Below are positions 11,149-17,037 of a DNA stretch of 36,926 bases, one piece after another. A program made the translations under genes and the position numbers. The DNA comes from Prevotella sp. (GTDB lineage: Bacteria; Bacteroidota; Bacteroidia; Bacteroidales; Bacteroidaceae): positions 1 through 36,926 of the forward strand of contig JAFVEE010000115.1 of NCBI GenBank assembly GCA_017478085.1, in the 5' to 3' direction. How positions within the stretch are numbered: position 1 is the stretch's first letter; each line of letters starts with the position of its first letter. Below the pieces are notes generated by a model. It saw only the letters and a program-made list of their open reading frames with translations, made no database searches and had not been told where the DNA came from.

Positions 11149-12039
11149 ATGAAAAGTATCAAAGTTACCCTGTTAGCGGTGGTCGCTGTGCTGATGGCCA
11201 GCTGTGGAACCACCTCTACGGTGCCCATCACGGGGCGCACCCAGCGACTGCTCGTCACCGACGAAGAGGTGCTGAGCCTCTCGAACCAGCAGTATCAGCA
11301 GTATATGCAGACGGCCAAGGCTTCGACCAACGCCACCAACACCGCCTTGGTGAAGCAGGTGGGGCAGCGGTTGGCCAACGCCGTGATCTCGTATCTGAAC
11401 AGCAACGGCCTGAGTGCCGACACGAAGAACTACAGTTGGGAGTTCAACCTGGTGCAGGATCAGCAGGTCAATGCCTTCTGCATGCCTGGCGGTAAGATCG
11501 TGGTCTACGAGGGGCTGCTGCCCGTCACCCAGAACGAGGCCTCGCTGGCCATCGTGCTGGGCCACGAGATAGCCCACGCTGTGGCCAAGCACTCGGCCGA
11601 GCGACTGAGCAATGAGTACAAGAACCAGTATGGCACGGCCATCCTGAGCTCGGTGCTGGGCAACTCCCACCTGAGTGAGGCCACGCAGCAGCTCATAGCC
11701 CTGGGCCAGTCGCTGGGCTCACAGCTCTGGACATCGGGCTTCTCGCGCAAGCAGGAGAGCGAGGCCGACCACATGGGCTTGATCTTCGCCGCCATGGCTG
11801 GCTACGACCCCCAGGTGGCCACTGCCTTCTGGCAGCGCATGGCCGCACAGAGCAGCGGCTCGGGCGGCCTGTTCAGCGACCACCCCAGCGATGCCGACCG
11901 CATCAAGAACATCCAAGGCTGGATGCCCGAGGCCCTGAAGTACTACAAGCCCGTGACCACCACGACCACTACCACGAAGAAAACTACTACCACAAAGAAA
12001 ACCACCACTACAAAGAAGACCACCACGAAGAAAAAGTAG
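11149..12039 (+). CDS. M48-family zinc metallopeptidase lipoprotein
   Basis: This 296-residue protein has a lipoprotein signal peptide with lipobox MASC (Cys19), so it is probably periplasmic and membrane-anchored. The zinc motif HEIAH is at residues 139-143, with the third ligand probably E203 in QESEADHMG, as in M48 LoiP/BepA-like proteases that degrade misfolded outer-membrane proteins. The domain ends with the usual SDHPSDADRI segment. The C-terminal 30 or so residues are an unusual low-complexity tail of Thr runs and Lys pairs. It sits 36 nt after the sensor gene and may share its transcript. Together with lptD nearby, an envelope quality-control role is plausible but inferred. Confidence 0.9.
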   Translation: MKSIKVTLLAVVAVLMASCGTTSTVPITGRTQRLLVTDEEVLSLSNQQYQQYMQTAKASTNATNTALVKQVGQRLANAVISYLNSNGLSADTKNYSWEFNLVQDQQVNAFCMPGGKIVVYEGLLPVTQNEASLAIVLGHEIAHAVAKHSAERLSNEYKNQYGTAILSSVLGNSHLSEATQQLIALGQSLGSQLWTSGFSRKQESEADHMGLIFAAMAGYDPQVATAFWQRMAAQSSGSGGLFSDHPSDADRIKNIQGWMPEALKYYKPVTTTTTTTKKTTTTKKTTTTKKTTTKKK

Positions 12040-12142: not shown

Positions 12143-13255
12143 CTACAATTTGAACATATCTTTTTGTTCTGGTTCAAGAACATTCTCATAAAATTCATTG
12201 AGGAAAGAGTTAATCAGTGGGTCTCTGTCTTCAAGGAGAACTGAATAATCCAAGAAATGCATGTCATAATAAATCCAGTTATAAAGATTGTTTTCTGTAT
12301 CTGTAAAATCTTTAATTATCTCCATACATTCATCTCTTGACATTGTGTAGGATACGTTCTTACGCATGCGGTGATATTTGAGTTTGTTAAATAGAAGCCG
12401 ACGAGCCGCCCGTTGTCTGATTCTGTAGTCACTCATCTCCTCCCGCATCAGCGTTGGCGTTACCTCTTCCCAATCGTCATTAAGGCGGACTGTTACCAGA
12501 GTTGTCCTCAAAAAACCGAAGGCTTTCCTTTTCATTTCCCCTATTATGTGAATACCCTTGGATGGCAGAATCTCTTCTATGTAGTTGGTAGAAATGAACA
12601 TACGTATTATCTGTTGGAAGATTTGTTCCAGTTTCAGCTTTGACAAGTCACATTCCTTCAATCTACCAGACATCACCTCCATGGCGAACCAGTCGCATGA
12701 AAGTTCTTCCATCAGAATCTTGTCATTTAGCACCTTGTCTACTATGTAACCCGAAATTCTTCCTTTCAATCCATTGTGTCGTGTGGAAACCACGAAGTCA
12801 TATATCGCCTGTTTTGTGTTATCGAGAAAGATAGGATTCTTTCCAAAGATATAATGCCCATACTCATGAGCGAGCATAGCTTCTGCCTGAAAATCTAGAT
12901 AGAAATCTACCTTGTCCGTAATACTAAGATAATCGAAAGTCAGACCTCTATTTGCCTCTTTCAAGGCATCCAACACTATACGTGCATTATACCAATTTCC
13001 TGTTTCAATATGCAGATTTGCCATTAGGTATAGAAACAGACGCTTATGTATCTTCTCTGGGTCATACTTATATGCAGTAAATAGGGACAAGATTGTGTTC
13101 ATACGTTTGCTGAACACAATCTTTTCCCCCTTGTCTACATAAGGAAACAGATTCTTTCCTTCAAAGTCAAGAATGCAATCCTCGTTATATTTGTCATTTA
13201 GATAATTGAGGAGGTCACGCAATCCTTCGTAATCAACAGCTCTAAATGTTGCCAT
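12143..13255 (-). CDS. HExxH metallopeptidase-like protein of unknown family
   Basis: This 370-residue protein, apparently cytoplasmic, has no signal peptide. The motif HEYGH (residues 130-134) sits in MLAHEYGHYIFG. About 50 residues later EELSCDWFA provides a candidate third zinc ligand (E184, with D188 four residues on), a layout shared by M48 and ImmA/IrrE-like gluzincins. The N-terminal 120 residues and the C-terminal 180 residues match nothing I recognise. The gene starts 13 nt after a small 127-residue gene on the same strand, and the two probably form one transcript. Base composition is AT-rich, unlike the flanking core genes, which points to transfer. The peptidase motif is clear; the substrate and role are unknown. 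Confidence 0.7.
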   Translation of the reverse strand: MATFRAVDYEGLRDLLNYLNDKYNEDCILDFEGKNLFPYVDKGEKIVFSKRMNTILSLFTAYKYDPEKIHKRLFLYLMANLHIETGNWYNARIVLDALKEANRGLTFDYLSITDKVDFYLDFQAEAMLAHEYGHYIFGKNPIFLDNTKQAIYDFVVSTRHNGLKGRISGYIVDKVLNDKILMEELSCDWFAMEVMSGRLKECDLSKLKLEQIFQQIIRMFISTNYIEEILPSKGIHIIGEMKRKAFGFLRTTLVTVRLNDDWEEVTPTLMREEMSDYRIRQRAARRLLFNKLKYHRMRKNVSYTMSRDECMEIIKDFTDTENNLYNWIYYDMHFLDYSVLLEDRDPLINSFLNEFYENVLEPEQKDMFKL

Positions 13256-13268
13256 AAGAAGGAAGTAA

Positions 13269-13652
13269 TCACGATTTGTTGTCAGAATTTACGCCAAGTA
13301 TTATTTTAATGGCCTGGTTTATAGTAACTTTCTGCTTGAGATTATTTGATGAAATGCTAACAAAGAATTTCGACCCGAGCCATTTTTCTAAAGAAATAAG
13401 AGCGGAAAGGATTGTTATGGCACTTGATGTACAAGATATGATCTCCATTCCTGTAAAGTTTGCGGTATCTCTATGTAGCAGAAGGCCTGACTCGTTCTCA
13501 AGCTTTGATTTTTGCGATTCGGTCAAAAATGACGCATCAAAATCAAATGTTGCCATCTTGTTTTTCAGATCTTCTTCTGAGAGACCTGCTTCTGCAAGAT
13601 AGTCATTTAGGGATTTTCTTCCCACAAGAATTTTCTTTAGTTTGTCTATCAT
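13269..13652 (-). CDS. Small protein paired with the metallopeptidase
   Basis: This 127-residue protein has a charged, probably helical N-terminal half, followed by a hydrophobic or amphipathic helix ending SALISLEKWLGSK. The C-terminus is a short beta-like segment (FFVSISS...QKVTINQAI). The helix-then-WL-then-two-strand pattern is reminiscent of effector-associated constant components (EACC1-like) that accompany peptidases in predicted bacterial conflict systems. That is a visual resemblance only. The gene precedes the metallopeptidase gene by 13 nt and has the same AT-rich composition, so the two are likely a functional pair. Confidence 0.6.
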   Translation of the reverse strand: MIDKLKKILVGRKSLNDYLAEAGLSEEDLKNKMATFDFDASFLTESQKSKLENESGLLLHRDTANFTGMEIISCTSSAITILSALISLEKWLGSKFFVSISSNNLKQKVTINQAIKIILGVNSDNKS

Positions 13653-13758
13653 TACTTTTAGTCTTTTATTTTAGTCTGATTGTGCTTCTGTTTGACACAG
13701 GCAATGCTGACTGCAATGAGAATGCGTAACGTCATCTTCGTTGTCACATAGTCATTTG

Positions 13759-13766
13759 CAAAAGTA
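13759..13766 (-). promoter_or_regulatory. Possible -7 box for the peptidase cassette
   Basis: TACTTTTG on the minus strand matches the Bacteroidota -7 element and lies about 107 nt upstream of the small gene. No good TTTG occurs 20 nt further up, so this is tentative. The rest of 13653-13875 is AT-rich and holds no other signal that I can support. Confidence 0.4.
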
Positions 13767-13874
13767 GACAAAAATATTCAAATAAATACCGTTCCTCCTC
13801 CAAAACGGTGTGGTATACCGTTCATTTAACAAAGTTTAATCCGGAAAGATGCCGTCTTCACCCTTCCCATTCTT

Positions 13875-13920
13875 AACAAAAACAGCCTGCGATTGACCAA
13901 GGATTAATCGCAGGCTGTGC
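13875..13920 (-). terminator. Terminator hairpin, copy 2
   Basis: A 13-bp stem pairs 13882-13894 with 13906-13918 around an 11-nt loop. It differs from copy 1 (12062-12110) at only a few positions, and the flanking TCTTC...AACAAA sequence is also similar. It lies 29 nt beyond the stop codon of the DUF4153-like gene and probably terminates that operon. Confidence 0.8.
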
Positions 13921-13948
13921 TTTGTAATATGCCACTCATGCGCTTCGG

Positions 13949-15205
13949 CTATTTTGTGTAGACCTTAATCTGGTAGTATTCTTCCATATAGTTCACACGG
14001 TTGCTCCAGTCTTCCCGTTCTGCATTTGTCATCTTGGATATTCCCTTTTCTTTTTTCTCGCGAATGTCCTTTAAAATATAGTCTCGGGCAATCGAATTGT
14101 AGTTGATGGGAAAAACCGAGGTCAGTAAGAATATGGCACAGAAGGAAATAGGAATCCAGTTGATGCGACGAAGCTTTGTGAAAAACATCACACAGCATGC
14201 CACATAGAACCAAGCATTGAGTGTGGCAAGATACAAGCGTGTGGCTGTAATGCCGTAGTCATAGATTCTTCGCCAGATGCCAATTGACATCAAAATCAGC
14301 AGTGGCATAACCAGTAGGGGCAACCAGCGCATGAACCATCCCGAAGTCGGCTTGATGCCCTCCCGGTTGATGAAGAACAGATAGAACTCTATCAAGAAGT
14401 AGAACCCCATCATCACTGCAATGAGCGATGCAACTCCCCCATTGGGCAGTTCCCACGCGAGGGCTATATGGCACTCATAGCAGTAAAGAATGCAGATATA
14501 GCACGTTGCCAGGGGAACGATCAGCATTCTCATCATAGCCTGAACGAACGGGTCCAGCTTGATGGCTCTGTTCGTTAATCTCTTCCCCTTGAATATGCGC
14601 GACAAGAAAAGAAGCATAGGCAATACGATTTGGAAGAAGATAATGATCGAGTAGTAATCTTTTCGGGAGGCAACGATGTCGAAGAACAAAGGAAAAGATA
14701 TATTGACAAGTATGCATAATATCAGCGTGGGGAAAAATCCTGTATAGGGTGCAATGATAGCCTGCTTTGCCAGATGTAATCCAAAATTGACGGCAGGAAT
14801 ATCATCAGTCTCTCCCGTGAAAGGCAGGAAGACGCATGCAACGAGCAAGCTTAGCATAATTGATAAATGTGCCGTTACAAGTCCTTCGCCGACGAACCCT
14901 CTATCCAGCCAAATCAGGGCCAGTGCCAGCAGGAGGACTTGCCCTGCTATGTGTTGCCACAAGTGCCTGTGGCCAGTCCTTTCATCCCATATCTTCATTG
15001 CGAACGACAAGACTGCCCCTTCCATGAAATAGGCCAGAAGGTCAGTGCTTGCAGAAGAAGCCAGCAGCTGAGGGTGCCATACCGTCACCAGTGCAAAGAT
15101 GGCAAACAGCAAAGTAAAGAAAACGGTCAGCGGAAAGCGCCTCGCAGTTCTCATGATGCAGTCTCTGACTGCCATCGGGTTAATACTTTTCCCTCTCGTC
15201 ATCAT
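13949..15205 (-). CDS. DUF4153-like polytopic membrane protein
   Basis: This 418-residue protein has around eleven hydrophobic segments spread from residue 25 to 370, then a soluble C-terminal tail (YILKDIREKKEKG...) rich in charge. The layout, including the paired Trp/Tyr-rich helices and a tail starting near INYNSIARDYI, resembles the DUF4153 family common in Bacteroidales, whose function is not established. Two adjacent Met codons open the frame; the first is used here. It is the last gene of a minus-strand cluster (50 nt after the 199-residue gene) and is followed by a terminator hairpin. Confidence 0.65.
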   Translation of the reverse strand: MMTRGKSINPMAVRDCIMRTARRFPLTVFFTLLFAIFALVTVWHPQLLASSASTDLLAYFMEGAVLSFAMKIWDERTGHRHLWQHIAGQVLLLALALIWLDRGFVGEGLVTAHLSIMLSLLVACVFLPFTGETDDIPAVNFGLHLAKQAIIAPYTGFFPTLILCILVNISFPLFFDIVASRKDYYSIIIFFQIVLPMLLFLSRIFKGKRLTNRAIKLDPFVQAMMRMLIVPLATCYICILYCYECHIALAWELPNGGVASLIAVMMGFYFLIEFYLFFINREGIKPTSGWFMRWLPLLVMPLLILMSIGIWRRIYDYGITATRLYLATLNAWFYVACCVMFFTKLRRINWIPISFCAIFLLTSVFPINYNSIARDYILKDIREKKEKGISKMTNAEREDWSNRVNYMEEYYQIKVYTK

Positions 15206-15255
15206 ATTCTCCCTTAGTTCGTGTCGGGCGCAACTTCTAAATGTCTAAAGTCACT

Positions 15256-15855
15256 TTATTCCATACTTTTACAAAGCCACTCCAGATAGTAGGCTATGCT
15301 TCTCAGCACCATCATTTCGCACGACACTTCAGTGTGATGCAGCAGCTCGCGCTGAAACAGCATGACGTCGGCTTCATTACTTTGGGTAATCAACTCCCAA
15401 AGTGTTATTTCCTCAGCTTTCTCCTGTAGGCGCACAAGAATTGCCTCGTCTTCAGTCTGGCTGTTGATGACAGCAACATTTCGCCTTCCGTATTGGCGTA
15501 GACTATCTGCGACATAGTCAACGATGCTTGTCTTTTCCTCTTCTGAGGATTGAGCAACAACACTTTTTATACGTTCCATAATCCTCGAAGTCAAGTCCGG
15601 CTCGTAGAGCAATTTGTCCAGCTGGGCTTTGACATCGGCCTCAATCAAAGCCTTCAGACTTATGCTGATGTCCTTGTGTAGTTTGTTCGGGTTTTCTGAT
15701 ACCTTTGTTTGGAAATAGCCCTCGTCTATGTTGTTGATCATTCGGCGGGCAAGACGGCAGGGAGAGCCTTCGCTCTCCACCACCATCTCAATAATTTCCT
15801 TCACCAGCATCTGGCCCTTTTCATTTTGTTTCGTTGGTTCCTTCTTCTGCATCAT
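15256..15855 (-). CDS. Hypothetical soluble helical protein
   Basis: I do not recognise this 199-residue protein. It is charged, predicted mostly helical, and has no signal peptide or transmembrane segment. The N-terminal part (MLVKEIIEMVVESEGSPCRL) could be the true start (ATG at 15810) instead of the upstream ATG at 15855. The longer form overlaps the preceding membrane-protein gene by 35 nt; the shorter one would start 10 nt after it. Tight packing suggests translational coupling with the flanking membrane proteins, so a cytoplasmic partner role is possible. Confidence 0.6.
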   Translation of the reverse strand: MMQKKEPTKQNEKGQMLVKEIIEMVVESEGSPCRLARRMINNIDEGYFQTKVSENPNKLHKDISISLKALIEADVKAQLDKLLYEPDLTSRIMERIKSVVAQSSEEEKTSIVDYVADSLRQYGRRNVAVINSQTEDEAILVRLQEKAEEITLWELITQSNEADVMLFQRELLHHTEVSCEMMVLRSIAYYLEWLCKSME

Positions 15856-16411
15856 TCTTATTTTCTATCTGTAGTTTGTTTTCTTTCTCCTGTTGATTAC
15901 TCCGCTTCGTTGTCCTTATTTCTTTGAACCATAGCCTTAGTTTGTAGAGACCCACAATGGCAAAAACAATGAATATGACGAACAATGAACCCATAATGGC
16001 AGTCAGGAAGAACAGCCTGACGTTCTGCCTGTTCTCCAGTTCCTTGAACTTCACGTGGAATTGTAGTCCGTTCTGCTTTATCAACTCTATTTTGTCCTGG
16101 TCGGTAAATTGTATGCTGCTCATCGTCTTTAAGTCCGGTTCTGGATACATATCCGTAAACTCCGTTGCACCTACGTAGTCTATCGTCAATGTCAGCGAGT
16201 CAAGTAGATAGGTATTTATGTGTAAATCCACGTATTGTTGCGAGATGTCCCATAAAGCCCACCATGTAGAATTTGACTCAGTCGGTACGTTAAACCATTT
16301 AGCATACGGTGATGTGATTATTGTGTTCAAAATACCTATAGTTAAAAGCGCAAATTCGGCTTCCATAAATAGGGCGTGCTTTTTTTTCTTTCTCCTTAAC
16401 CATATTTTCAT
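15821..16411 (-). CDS. Membrane protein ORF, probably the 3' part of a frameshifted gene
   Basis: This 196-residue frame has an extracytoplasmic-type region (residues 25-125) and a strong transmembrane helix near the C-terminus (LFFLTAIMGSLFVIFIVFAI), followed by a basic then acidic cytoplasmic tail. As read from ATG 16411 it begins MKIWLRRKKKKHALF. Its N-terminus overlaps the preceding ORF by 113 nt, and the overlap contains a run of eight A residues (16380-16387 on the complement). Removing one A would fuse the two ORFs into one protein with a transmembrane helix at each end of a periplasmic loop. The family is unrecognised. Confidence 0.55.
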   Translation of the reverse strand: MKIWLRRKKKKHALFMEAEFALLTIGILNTIITSPYAKWFNVPTESNSTWWALWDISQQYVDLHINTYLLDSLTLTIDYVGATEFTDMYPEPDLKTMSSIQFTDQDKIELIKQNGLQFHVKFKELENRQNVRLFFLTAIMGSLFVIFIVFAIVGLYKLRLWFKEIRTTKRSNQQEKENKLQIENKNDAEEGTNETK

Positions 16412-16652
16412 CAGTTACCATTGGTAAGAATAAAAGGAAATCTGCGCAATTTGTCATCTTTTCATAAGTCTCTGTGCTTGCAGAGGATACATTGTAATCG
16501 TATACAGGAACTTTGTTCAACTTTACATATAGGAACAAGCACAATCCAAACAGTGCAACCAGACACACAATTTCATAGACAGACTCGATGGGAAAGTCTT
16601 TAGGTTCAGGAAAAAGATGCCACTTGAACCATTTTTTCTTTTGTTTACTCAT
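16299..16652 (-). CDS. Membrane protein ORF, probably the 5' part of the same gene
   Basis: This 117-residue frame starts with a basic aromatic N-terminus (MSKQKKKWFKWHLFPEP) and has one transmembrane helix (VYEIVCLVALFGLCLFLYVKL). After the A8 run its last 20 or so residues (PIYGSRICAFNYRYFEH...) lack any coherent character and look like an out-of-frame tail. It is the first gene of the accessory operon, 81 nt downstream of the U run that ends the structured RNA at 16733-17000. It may be a separate small protein, but fusion with the next ORF is the better explanation. Confidence 0.55.
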   Translation of the reverse strand: MSKQKKKWFKWHLFPEPKDFPIESVYEIVCLVALFGLCLFLYVKLNKVPVYDYNVSSASTETYEKMTNCADFLLFLPMVTDENMVKEKEKKARPIYGSRICAFNYRYFEHNNHITVC

Positions 16653-16732
16653 AATAAGTTCAAATACATAGCCTCCTAAACACCCCAGATTCAGCTCGTT
16701 AATCTATAGTTCTTCGGTTTTCCTTAGCATAC

Positions 16733-17000
16733 AAAAAAGGCGTAGGTGTCTGTTTCTTTGCCCATCCTGGGAACACAGGCTCTCGCATTGCCCAACCCAC
16801 ACAGGATAGACAACGCAGTTAGCCCACGCCAGTACGTTATATGAGCTATACACAAACGTACTACGTAGACGCCTCGGTTGTCATCTGCCTGCTGTGGGTT
16901 TGGAATTTGCGAGATTCGTGTTCCACAACGACAGACGTTCGAAAACGTCTTTCTCATATAGTAAGACCGCCCACTACCCACAGGTGGGTTGACTGAGCGA
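16733..17000 (-). ncRNA. Highly structured RNA of about 270 nt, class unknown (ncRNA or leader)
   Basis: Behind a strong promoter the minus strand forms nested complementary segments. GGAACAC (16770-16776) pairs with GTGTTCC (16918-16924), TCTCGCA (16781-16787) with TGCGAGA (16908-16914), AACCCACACAGG (16794-16805) with CCTGCTGTGGGTT (16888-16900, one bulge), GACAAC (16809-16814) with GTTGTC (16877-16882), and AGTACGTT (16831-16838) with AACGTACT (16855-16862). A separate 7-bp hairpin with a TTCG loop lies at 16933-16950. The transcript would end in six U residues (16733-16738). The long rod is reminiscent of 6S RNA, but I cannot assign a family. It could also be the 5' leader of the membrane operon starting at 16652. 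The 94-codon frame here is not protein-like. Confidence 0.6.
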
Positions 17001-17005
17001 TGCTG

Positions 17006-17037
17006 CAAAATTACGAAGAATTATTTGAAACACCAAA
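17006..17037 (-). promoter_or_regulatory. Strong promoter for the structured RNA
   Basis: On the minus strand TTTG (17034-17037) is followed after 20 nt by TAATTTTG (17006-17013), an exact match to the Bacteroidota consensus. Transcription would begin near 17000. The stretch from 17038 to about 17245 beyond it holds no feature that I can support. Confidence 0.8.

Follow-up and report, generated by a model that had tools for sequence, protein, structure and literature searches.

The window, i.e., the whole analyzed stretch of 36,926 nt, carries on its minus strand, from 17037 to 16652, a promoter, a folded RNA of about 270 nt between the promoter and a run of six U's (U6), a terminator-like helix immediately before U6, a conserved hairpin, and the ATG of an operon. 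The features are as follows.

17006..17037, minus strand: promoter, with TTTG at 17037-17034 (-33), N20, and TAATTTTG at 17013-17006 (-7)
16966..17001, minus strand: P0, the 5'-terminal hairpin (17001-16984 with 16981-16966; RNAalifold, nine near copies)
16949..16965, minus strand: P1 5' strand CTTACTATATGAGAAAG, with its partner at 16739-16723, through and beyond the U run
16934..16949, minus strand: PH hairpin GACGTT-TTCG-AACGTC, with the UUCG loop of the window's subclass
16885..16934, minus strand: 5' domain (P2, P3 5' strand, PA hairpin, P4 5' strand)
16934-16924 with 16896-16885, minus strand: P2, in the 5' domain
16924-16915 (5' strand) and 16777-16770 (3' strand), minus strand: P3, inter-domain helix
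16914-16908, minus strand: PA hairpin, loop K1 TCTCGCA, in the 5' domain
16900-16892 (5' strand) and 16803-16794 (3' strand), minus strand: P4, inter-domain helix
16825..16867, minus strand: Pv, a variable hairpin between the two domains, differing in length among copies in the alignments
16739..16830, minus strand: 3' domain (T helix, c:d stem, P4 3' strand, hpB, P3 3' strand; model R1)
16830-16823 with 16746-16739, minus strand: T helix, GGCGTGGG with CCTACGCC, closing the 3' domain
16814-16802 with 16769-16756, minus strand: c:d stem, in the 3' domain
16793-16777, minus strand: hpB hairpin, loop K2 TGCGAGA, in the 3' domain
16745..16751, minus strand: seed AGACACC, sharing 2 nt with the T 3' strand and complementary to GGTGTTT at 16684-16678
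16733..16738, minus strand: U6, directly 3' of T, terminator-like, also within the P1 3' strand
16670..16696, minus strand: downstream hairpin AGCTGAATCTGGGGTGTTTAGGAGGCT, with the anti-seed; the start codon follows after 17 nt
12143..16652, minus strand: downstream genes of 117, 196, 199, 418, 127, and 370 aa, of unknown function, partly membrane proteins

The promoter is perfect, as originally predicted, and of the Bacteroidales type, with a spacer of exactly 20 nt between TTTG and TAATTTTG; transcription is expected to start near 17000. The pattern TTTG-N19..21-TAnnTTTG occurs five times in the window against 0.10 expected. The fold of 17010-16700 (minus strand) has an energy of -120.1 kcal/mol (z -5.18), and none of 100 shuffled sequences is equally stable. 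The predicted UUCG-capped hairpin and U6 are both present, and the operon start, said to lie 81 nt after the U run, is the ATG at 16652. On its own strand, the RNA is crossed by a single ORF of at least 60 aa (94 aa, TTG start). This ORF is not credible, because the near copies described below differ by indels of one or two bases and by changes that keep the base pairs; a translated gene over the RNA was thus rejected, in agreement with the original prediction.

The proteins of the operon had no match over a cut-off in Pfam or NCBIfam; the 418-aa product shows weak DUF4153 similarity. The last protein of the gene run (370 aa; 12143-13255, minus strand) has an AHEYGHY motif and is presumably metalloprotease-like. 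A peptidase-like ORF at 11149-12039 (plus strand), with a HEIAH motif and a C-terminal Thr/Lys repeat tail, we take to be M48-like.

A BLASTN search with the window segment gave matches in 16 of 60 genomes, its own included. Nine near-full-length copies, counting that of the window, can be aligned over the promoter and the RNA up to and including the U run; for eight of them the alignment goes on through the hairpin before the start codon to about 16670, the exception being locus L017, where this hairpin is absent. Hence U6 exists where the original prediction placed the end of the RNA, but as the 3' end of the conserved element it is refuted. Distant copies keep the architecture and little of the sequence. 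The covariance model of the 3' domain (R1) found copies in 28 of the 60 genomes of the relatives search, up to ten per genome and six in the window's own genome, and in 21 of 198 genomes of the order, from 15 families (both counts include the own genome). A strict pattern matched in 96 of 200 same-genus genomes, some of them by chance, against three genomes for the reversed control; in named genomes it matched at least 118 stretches. Among the 80 titles listed for the latter, 76 are Bacteroidales or Bacteroidetes taxa (listed taxa include Bacteroides, Paraprevotella, Muribaculaceae, Paludibacteraceae, Parabacteroides, Alistipes, and Xylanibacter), three are Clostridia-type metagenome bins, and one is Sphingomonas. 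A phylum-wide spread was rejected: 21 of 296 genomes fit a loose pattern, and, the own genome aside, these stretches, judged by eye, have no conserved core.

The pattern was also found in three viral contigs, and related DNA occurs in two unannotated phage records and three plasmids of Phocaeicola/Bacteroides; the copy at L284 lies on a plasmid of Phocaeicola dorei CL06T03C03. Genuine-looking copies at loci L166, L217, and L231 lie on contigs binned as Clostridium, Clostridia, and Lachnospiraceae; misbinned contigs or transfer are candidate readings.

None of the 4227 models of Rfam release 15 matched the window at the gathering score, and at E<=10 the window copy gave just two weak chance matches to unrelated families. 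Thirty further family loci had nothing over the element at gathering, the sole match being a tRNA outside it (L010), and six of these thirty had nothing over it at E up to 1. The option of an unlisted Bacteroidales RNA, for which the original prediction had proposed this search, therefore stands. Searches of the open-access literature, covering listings and article passages (among them passages of PMC7160235, PMC8040213, PMC7366714, PMC12632263, and PMC10994844), listed no description of the element; an unnamed earlier prediction is possible.

The copies come in subclasses, that of the window comprising 24 of 116 non-redundant copies. This subclass has a UNCG loop in PH, as do 18 of 100 non-redundant copies from the other subclasses; in most other copies the loop differs. 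Two short forms (L011:1480-1680 and L015, G018:C248:4510-4569, minus strand) keep the promoter, P0, P1, the seed, and the downstream hairpin, while the two central domains and T are missing or shrunk to a mini-stem. They are a natural deletion experiment. As a common variant such deletion forms were rejected, since their pattern was seen in one of 200 genomes (the L015 copy), L011 being added by BLAST.

For nine close copies, RNAalifold predicts a rod, with changes on both sides in 21 of 99 pairs; for 36 diverse copies, it yields the helix T, the stem c:d, and the hairpins PH and hpB. In the main covariation test, complementarity within each copy was compared with that of partner-shuffled copies, with unbiased anchors and 300 shuffles. 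Of 221 records, eight had been dropped before this test, the earlier run, and the loop test described below, through a list of 24 locus names excluded by hand as duplicates or chance matches, and 187 of 213 were usable (24 had no loop anchor and two no U run), giving the 116 non-redundant copies; a separate list of 15 locus names removed four records. Family-wide, the strongest covariation is seen for P3 (z 50.3) and P4 (40.0), followed by PA (15.7), c:d (14.6), P2 (13.4), the pairing of the seed with the downstream loop (12.3), and the outer part of P1 (5.3), in each case with no shuffle as good; the inner part of P1 is mostly paired and hardly varies. Within the 24 copies of the window's subclass, P3 (z 12.9), P4 (11.4), PA (4.4), and outer P1 (3.2) are retained, c:d has z 3.3 with 13 of 300 shuffles as good, the seed pairing is weak (z 1.6; 16 of 300), and P2 shows no covariation (z -1.5; 287 of 300). 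The strands of P2 and c:d hardly vary in this subclass, which limits its value as a test of these two helices.

An earlier run on 144 copies, with the loop anchor chosen by complementarity and thus favoring the loop-pairing row, gave similar z values, with P5 at 5.7. It contained no copy of the window's subclass, because the U-run search had missed it. In this set, the rod pairings b:c (z 2.1) and a:d (z -1.0) are outdone by their competitors P2 (14.1) and c:d (12.5), P2 being unsupported in the window's subclass, and the former two were rejected as family-wide helices. The nested rod of the original prediction is the minimum-energy model; among its helices P3 and P4 are strongly supported, but b:c and a:d show little or no covariation family-wide in a set that lacks the window's subclass.

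In 181 of 186 copies, the loop of PA is a perfect 7-nt complement of that of hpB, and six matching variants occur (e.g., CUUCGCA/UGCGAAG, UCUCGCA/UGCGAGA, and UCUGGCA/UGCCAGA). The match within a copy averages 6.96 of 7, against 5.88 after shuffling (0 of 500 as good); the pattern and anchor (TGC:GCA) fix three of these positions and the anchor restricts the letters at the other four, for which the shuffle is a fair control. In copies found by the 3' domain alone (52 non-redundant of 59), the strands of P4 (z 18.8), P3 (20.3), and the hpB loop (14.3) match their own 5' side, with 0 of 200 shuffles as good in each case. Since the search patterns fix GCGTGGGC and GGCAATGC, T was tested on copies found by the covariance model: in 59 distinct rows, changes on both sides occur in six of eight pairs of T and in ten of 11 of c:d, and cells with two-sided changes number 117 against 30.4 +/- 6.9 when shuffled and at most 21 when slid, R1 being built mostly from pattern-found copies and its alignment leaning to its structure. 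Covariation, whose absence would have refuted the original prediction, is thus found among near copies, family-wide, and in model-found copies. From these helices we infer two four-way junctions (P2, P3, c:d, P4; and P3, PA, P4, hpB) that would share P3 and P4, with the PA and hpB loops paired. Loop and junction sequences are highly constrained. P2 and P4 overlap by some bases in the window copy, so that there the two cannot both be complete at once.

The 8 nt following T contain on average 6.2 T, and at least four in every one of 61 model-found copies, although the longest U run is just 2-3 in 12 of these. T with its U's looks like an intrinsic terminator; the U's could also be kept only as the partner of the A-rich P1 strand. 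The family has a conserved helix directly before a U run in the stretch from promoter to gene, the arrangement expected of an intrinsic-terminator attenuator leader. The outer part of P1 and the pairing of the seed with the downstream loop both require sequence past the U run, and the latter overlaps T (by 2 nt in the window copy). Conservation of these pairings across the U run suggests that the read-through RNA is under selection as well.

The family is placed like a cis leader. Among 81 copies (of 157) with enough flank, a same-strand ORF of at least 100 aa starts within 150 nt of the U run in 64, compared with 16 of 81 in the mirror orientation and 276 of 735 random same-strand windows; the median distance from the U run to the ORF is 70 nt. 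The TAnnTTTG box is found 5' of the RNA in 54 of 59 copies, against 12 of 59 for a control window on the downstream side, and in the 80 nt past the U run in two of 154, with no obvious second promoter there. An ORF by the criterion used is absent from 22 of 221 matched sequences, some of which are contig ends or chance matches. The two options of the original prediction, an unlisted RNA and the leader of the operon, therefore hold in combination.

First genes were scanned for 150 of 187 copies, cut at 330 aa, 37 having been dropped by hand as short, duplicate, or doubtful. They match 86 Pfam families; among the 25 of these listed are LRR_5/BspA (18 genes), NusG (8), LytTR (5), and FHA (3), and among the 25 listed of 36 PADLOC families are BrxP, SspB, DndC, and AbiH, with one or two matches each. 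Among first genes with 150 aa or more, 96 of 135 have a signal-like N-terminus by a hydrophobicity rule, compared with 281 of 692 other ORFs of the loci. In these gut and rumen Bacteroidales, first genes are diverse (surface, capsule, defence, and unknown functions; some are short) and, by this rule, enriched in secreted or surface proteins. Two first genes match PAPS reductase and two match DndC models in the Pfam scan.

On balance, we lean toward assigning the window segment to a family of large leader RNAs, outside Rfam, that would act in cis and most likely as transcription attenuators. Comparative sequence shows the family, its helices, T followed by U's, the family-wide pairing of the T 3' strand with the hairpin, and the place before same-strand genes. 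Each copy would bring its own promoter and end, in T and the U run, about 70 nt before the first gene. Its two hairpin domains would be joined by P3, P4, and the 7-bp loop-loop pairing, and T with the U's would form an intrinsic terminator stopping many transcripts, to give the RNA of about 270 nt. Some factor or ligand acting on the folded domains would let RNA polymerase pass the terminator. In the longer transcript made in this way, P1 would close over the U run and the 3' strand of T could bind the downstream hairpin, an interaction that may tune translation as well. Transcription attenuation, possibly coupled to translation, is favored because T lies directly before the U's and pairings are conserved across the U run. 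The weak U runs, P1 as a possible cause of the U's, the weak seed pairing in the window's subclass, and the short forms devoid of T count against it. The observation of the original prediction is confirmed and its interpretation supported in part.

The same pairings would also fit a riboswitch-like leader acting on translation, in which a ligand or protein binds the domains, the seed:hairpin pairing switches translation, and the U run is a partner of P1 only. The family-wide covariation of the seed with a loop close before the start codon, the span of P1 across the U run, and the constrained loops and junctions agree with this reading; however, at least four T's in the 8 nt after T in 61 of 61 copies are needless for control of translation, and 86 Pfam families over 150 first genes give no hint of one metabolite, which makes it rather unlikely. 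An independent small RNA that is terminated and works in trans via its seed or loops, only incidentally near a gene, would account for the own promoter and the terminator-like end. It is improbable, given that seed and anti-seed covary inside the same locus, that position and strand are biased, and that a -7 box is so rare in the gap before the gene. The long, rod-like minimum-energy fold recalls the suggestion of a 6S-like RNA. The 6S model (RF00013) had no match at E 10 in the window segment nor anywhere in the own genome, which is 77% complete, so that the model may also be blind to the 6S RNA of this group; a 6S or other Rfam RNA missed by the models is nevertheless highly improbable in view of the two chance matches up to E 10, the 30 further loci unmatched at gathering, and six copies in one genome, and the 6S suggestion was dropped.

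A further candidate is processive antitermination or recruitment of a NusG paralogue as in LoaP or UpxY systems, where the RNA or a bound factor would modify RNA polymerase and thereby allow it to transcribe long accessory operons. Eight of 150 first genes match the NusG family (the first gene of the window copy does not), and three NusG-like genes lie directly behind RNA matches (G015:C160, G015:C37, and G034:C47). According to the available text of PMC7819879, UpxY proteins act on the 5' leaders of Bacteroides fragilis capsule operons, preventing premature termination there, and LoaP binds a UNCG-loop hairpin of its leaders in that of PMC12691694. For some members of the family, an input of the NusG type is attractive on these grounds, PH being UNCG in the window's subclass and 18 of 100 others. 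PH loops differ in most other copies, however, and some first genes are short. Of 20 other NusG-like genes picked, one has an RNA match upstream at E<0.1 and 19 have no clear match; genome G027 has ten copies and no NusG match, G008 five and none, and G007 seven and one. UpxY is therefore unlikely as a general partner; the evidence for this is weak, because even the housekeeping NusG was not found in the incomplete genomes G027 and G008. We regard this reading as unlikely, if somewhat less so than a stand-alone small RNA. The one upstream match, L354:539-637 (minus strand; G000:C150 of the own genome), is a divergent member (32 bits) ahead of a UpxY-like NusG paralogue, with T changed to GCGUGAGC/GUUCACGC.

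Gut and rumen communities are dominated by Bacteroidales, whose surface and defence genes vary heavily. It is possible, and we suggest it tentatively, that one ornate RNA module, in which P3, P4, and a kissing loop would hold two four-way junctions together, spread among Bacteroidales to as many as ten sites per genome and puts surface-antigen, capsule, defence, and signalling operons under one RNA-read signal or one mechanism modifying RNA polymerase, as a regulon defined by RNA architecture. If true, a leader RNA shared by such loci would provide a common layer of control. The covariation of P3 and P4 and the loop match in 181 of 186 copies make the element a good target for structure work and for a search for a new ligand or factor.

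Purine and cobalamin riboswitches make loop-loop tertiary contacts in a folded 5' leader and switch near a terminator or start codon. The family shares the loop-loop contact in such a leader and differs by two inferred four-way junctions, the lack of an Rfam match, and genes unrelated to one metabolite. The UpxY-controlled capsule leaders of B. fragilis, as far as described in the available text of PMC7819879 and PMC12632263, come from the same taxonomic order and have a long leader between promoter and gene with premature termination, and upxY-type genes are among the first genes here; most copies of the family, however, precede other genes, and 19 of the 20 NusG-like upstream regions have no clear match. 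In the LoaP-dependent dfn/mln leaders of Bacillus velezensis, too, a long operon is preceded by an intrinsic terminator and a hairpin with a UNCG loop, but the available text of PMC12691694 describes a single small hairpin, whereas here the fold has two domains and PH is UNCG in part of the family. GOLLD, ROOL, and OLE, reported as homo-oligomers in the available part of PMC12286853, are also large, elaborate bacterial RNAs, while the present RNA has about 270 nt, is multicopy, and lies directly before genes. Candidate structured RNAs of human microbiomes, among them HMP2_1881 (108 bp, mostly Bacteroidetes, expressed; available text of PMC8040213), were compared by description only, and overlap with the family is possible.

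Several further observations concern the sequence behind individual copies. Short proteins rich in Cys, whose leader resembles 'ELQSRREFFK[KR]AAK', recur 3' of copies (L032, L096, L197, L211, L217, L272, and L279); to us they look like modified-peptide precursors. Copies on two IMG/VR contigs (L282 and L283) and at L191 precede related genes, marked by 'MYKI[ST]WD..GGVLLHS'. Some contigs end soon after a copy (G196:C80, G196:C217, G165:C42, G192:C67, G034:C47, and G096:C88), which might reflect downstream genes that are repetitive or assemble poorly.
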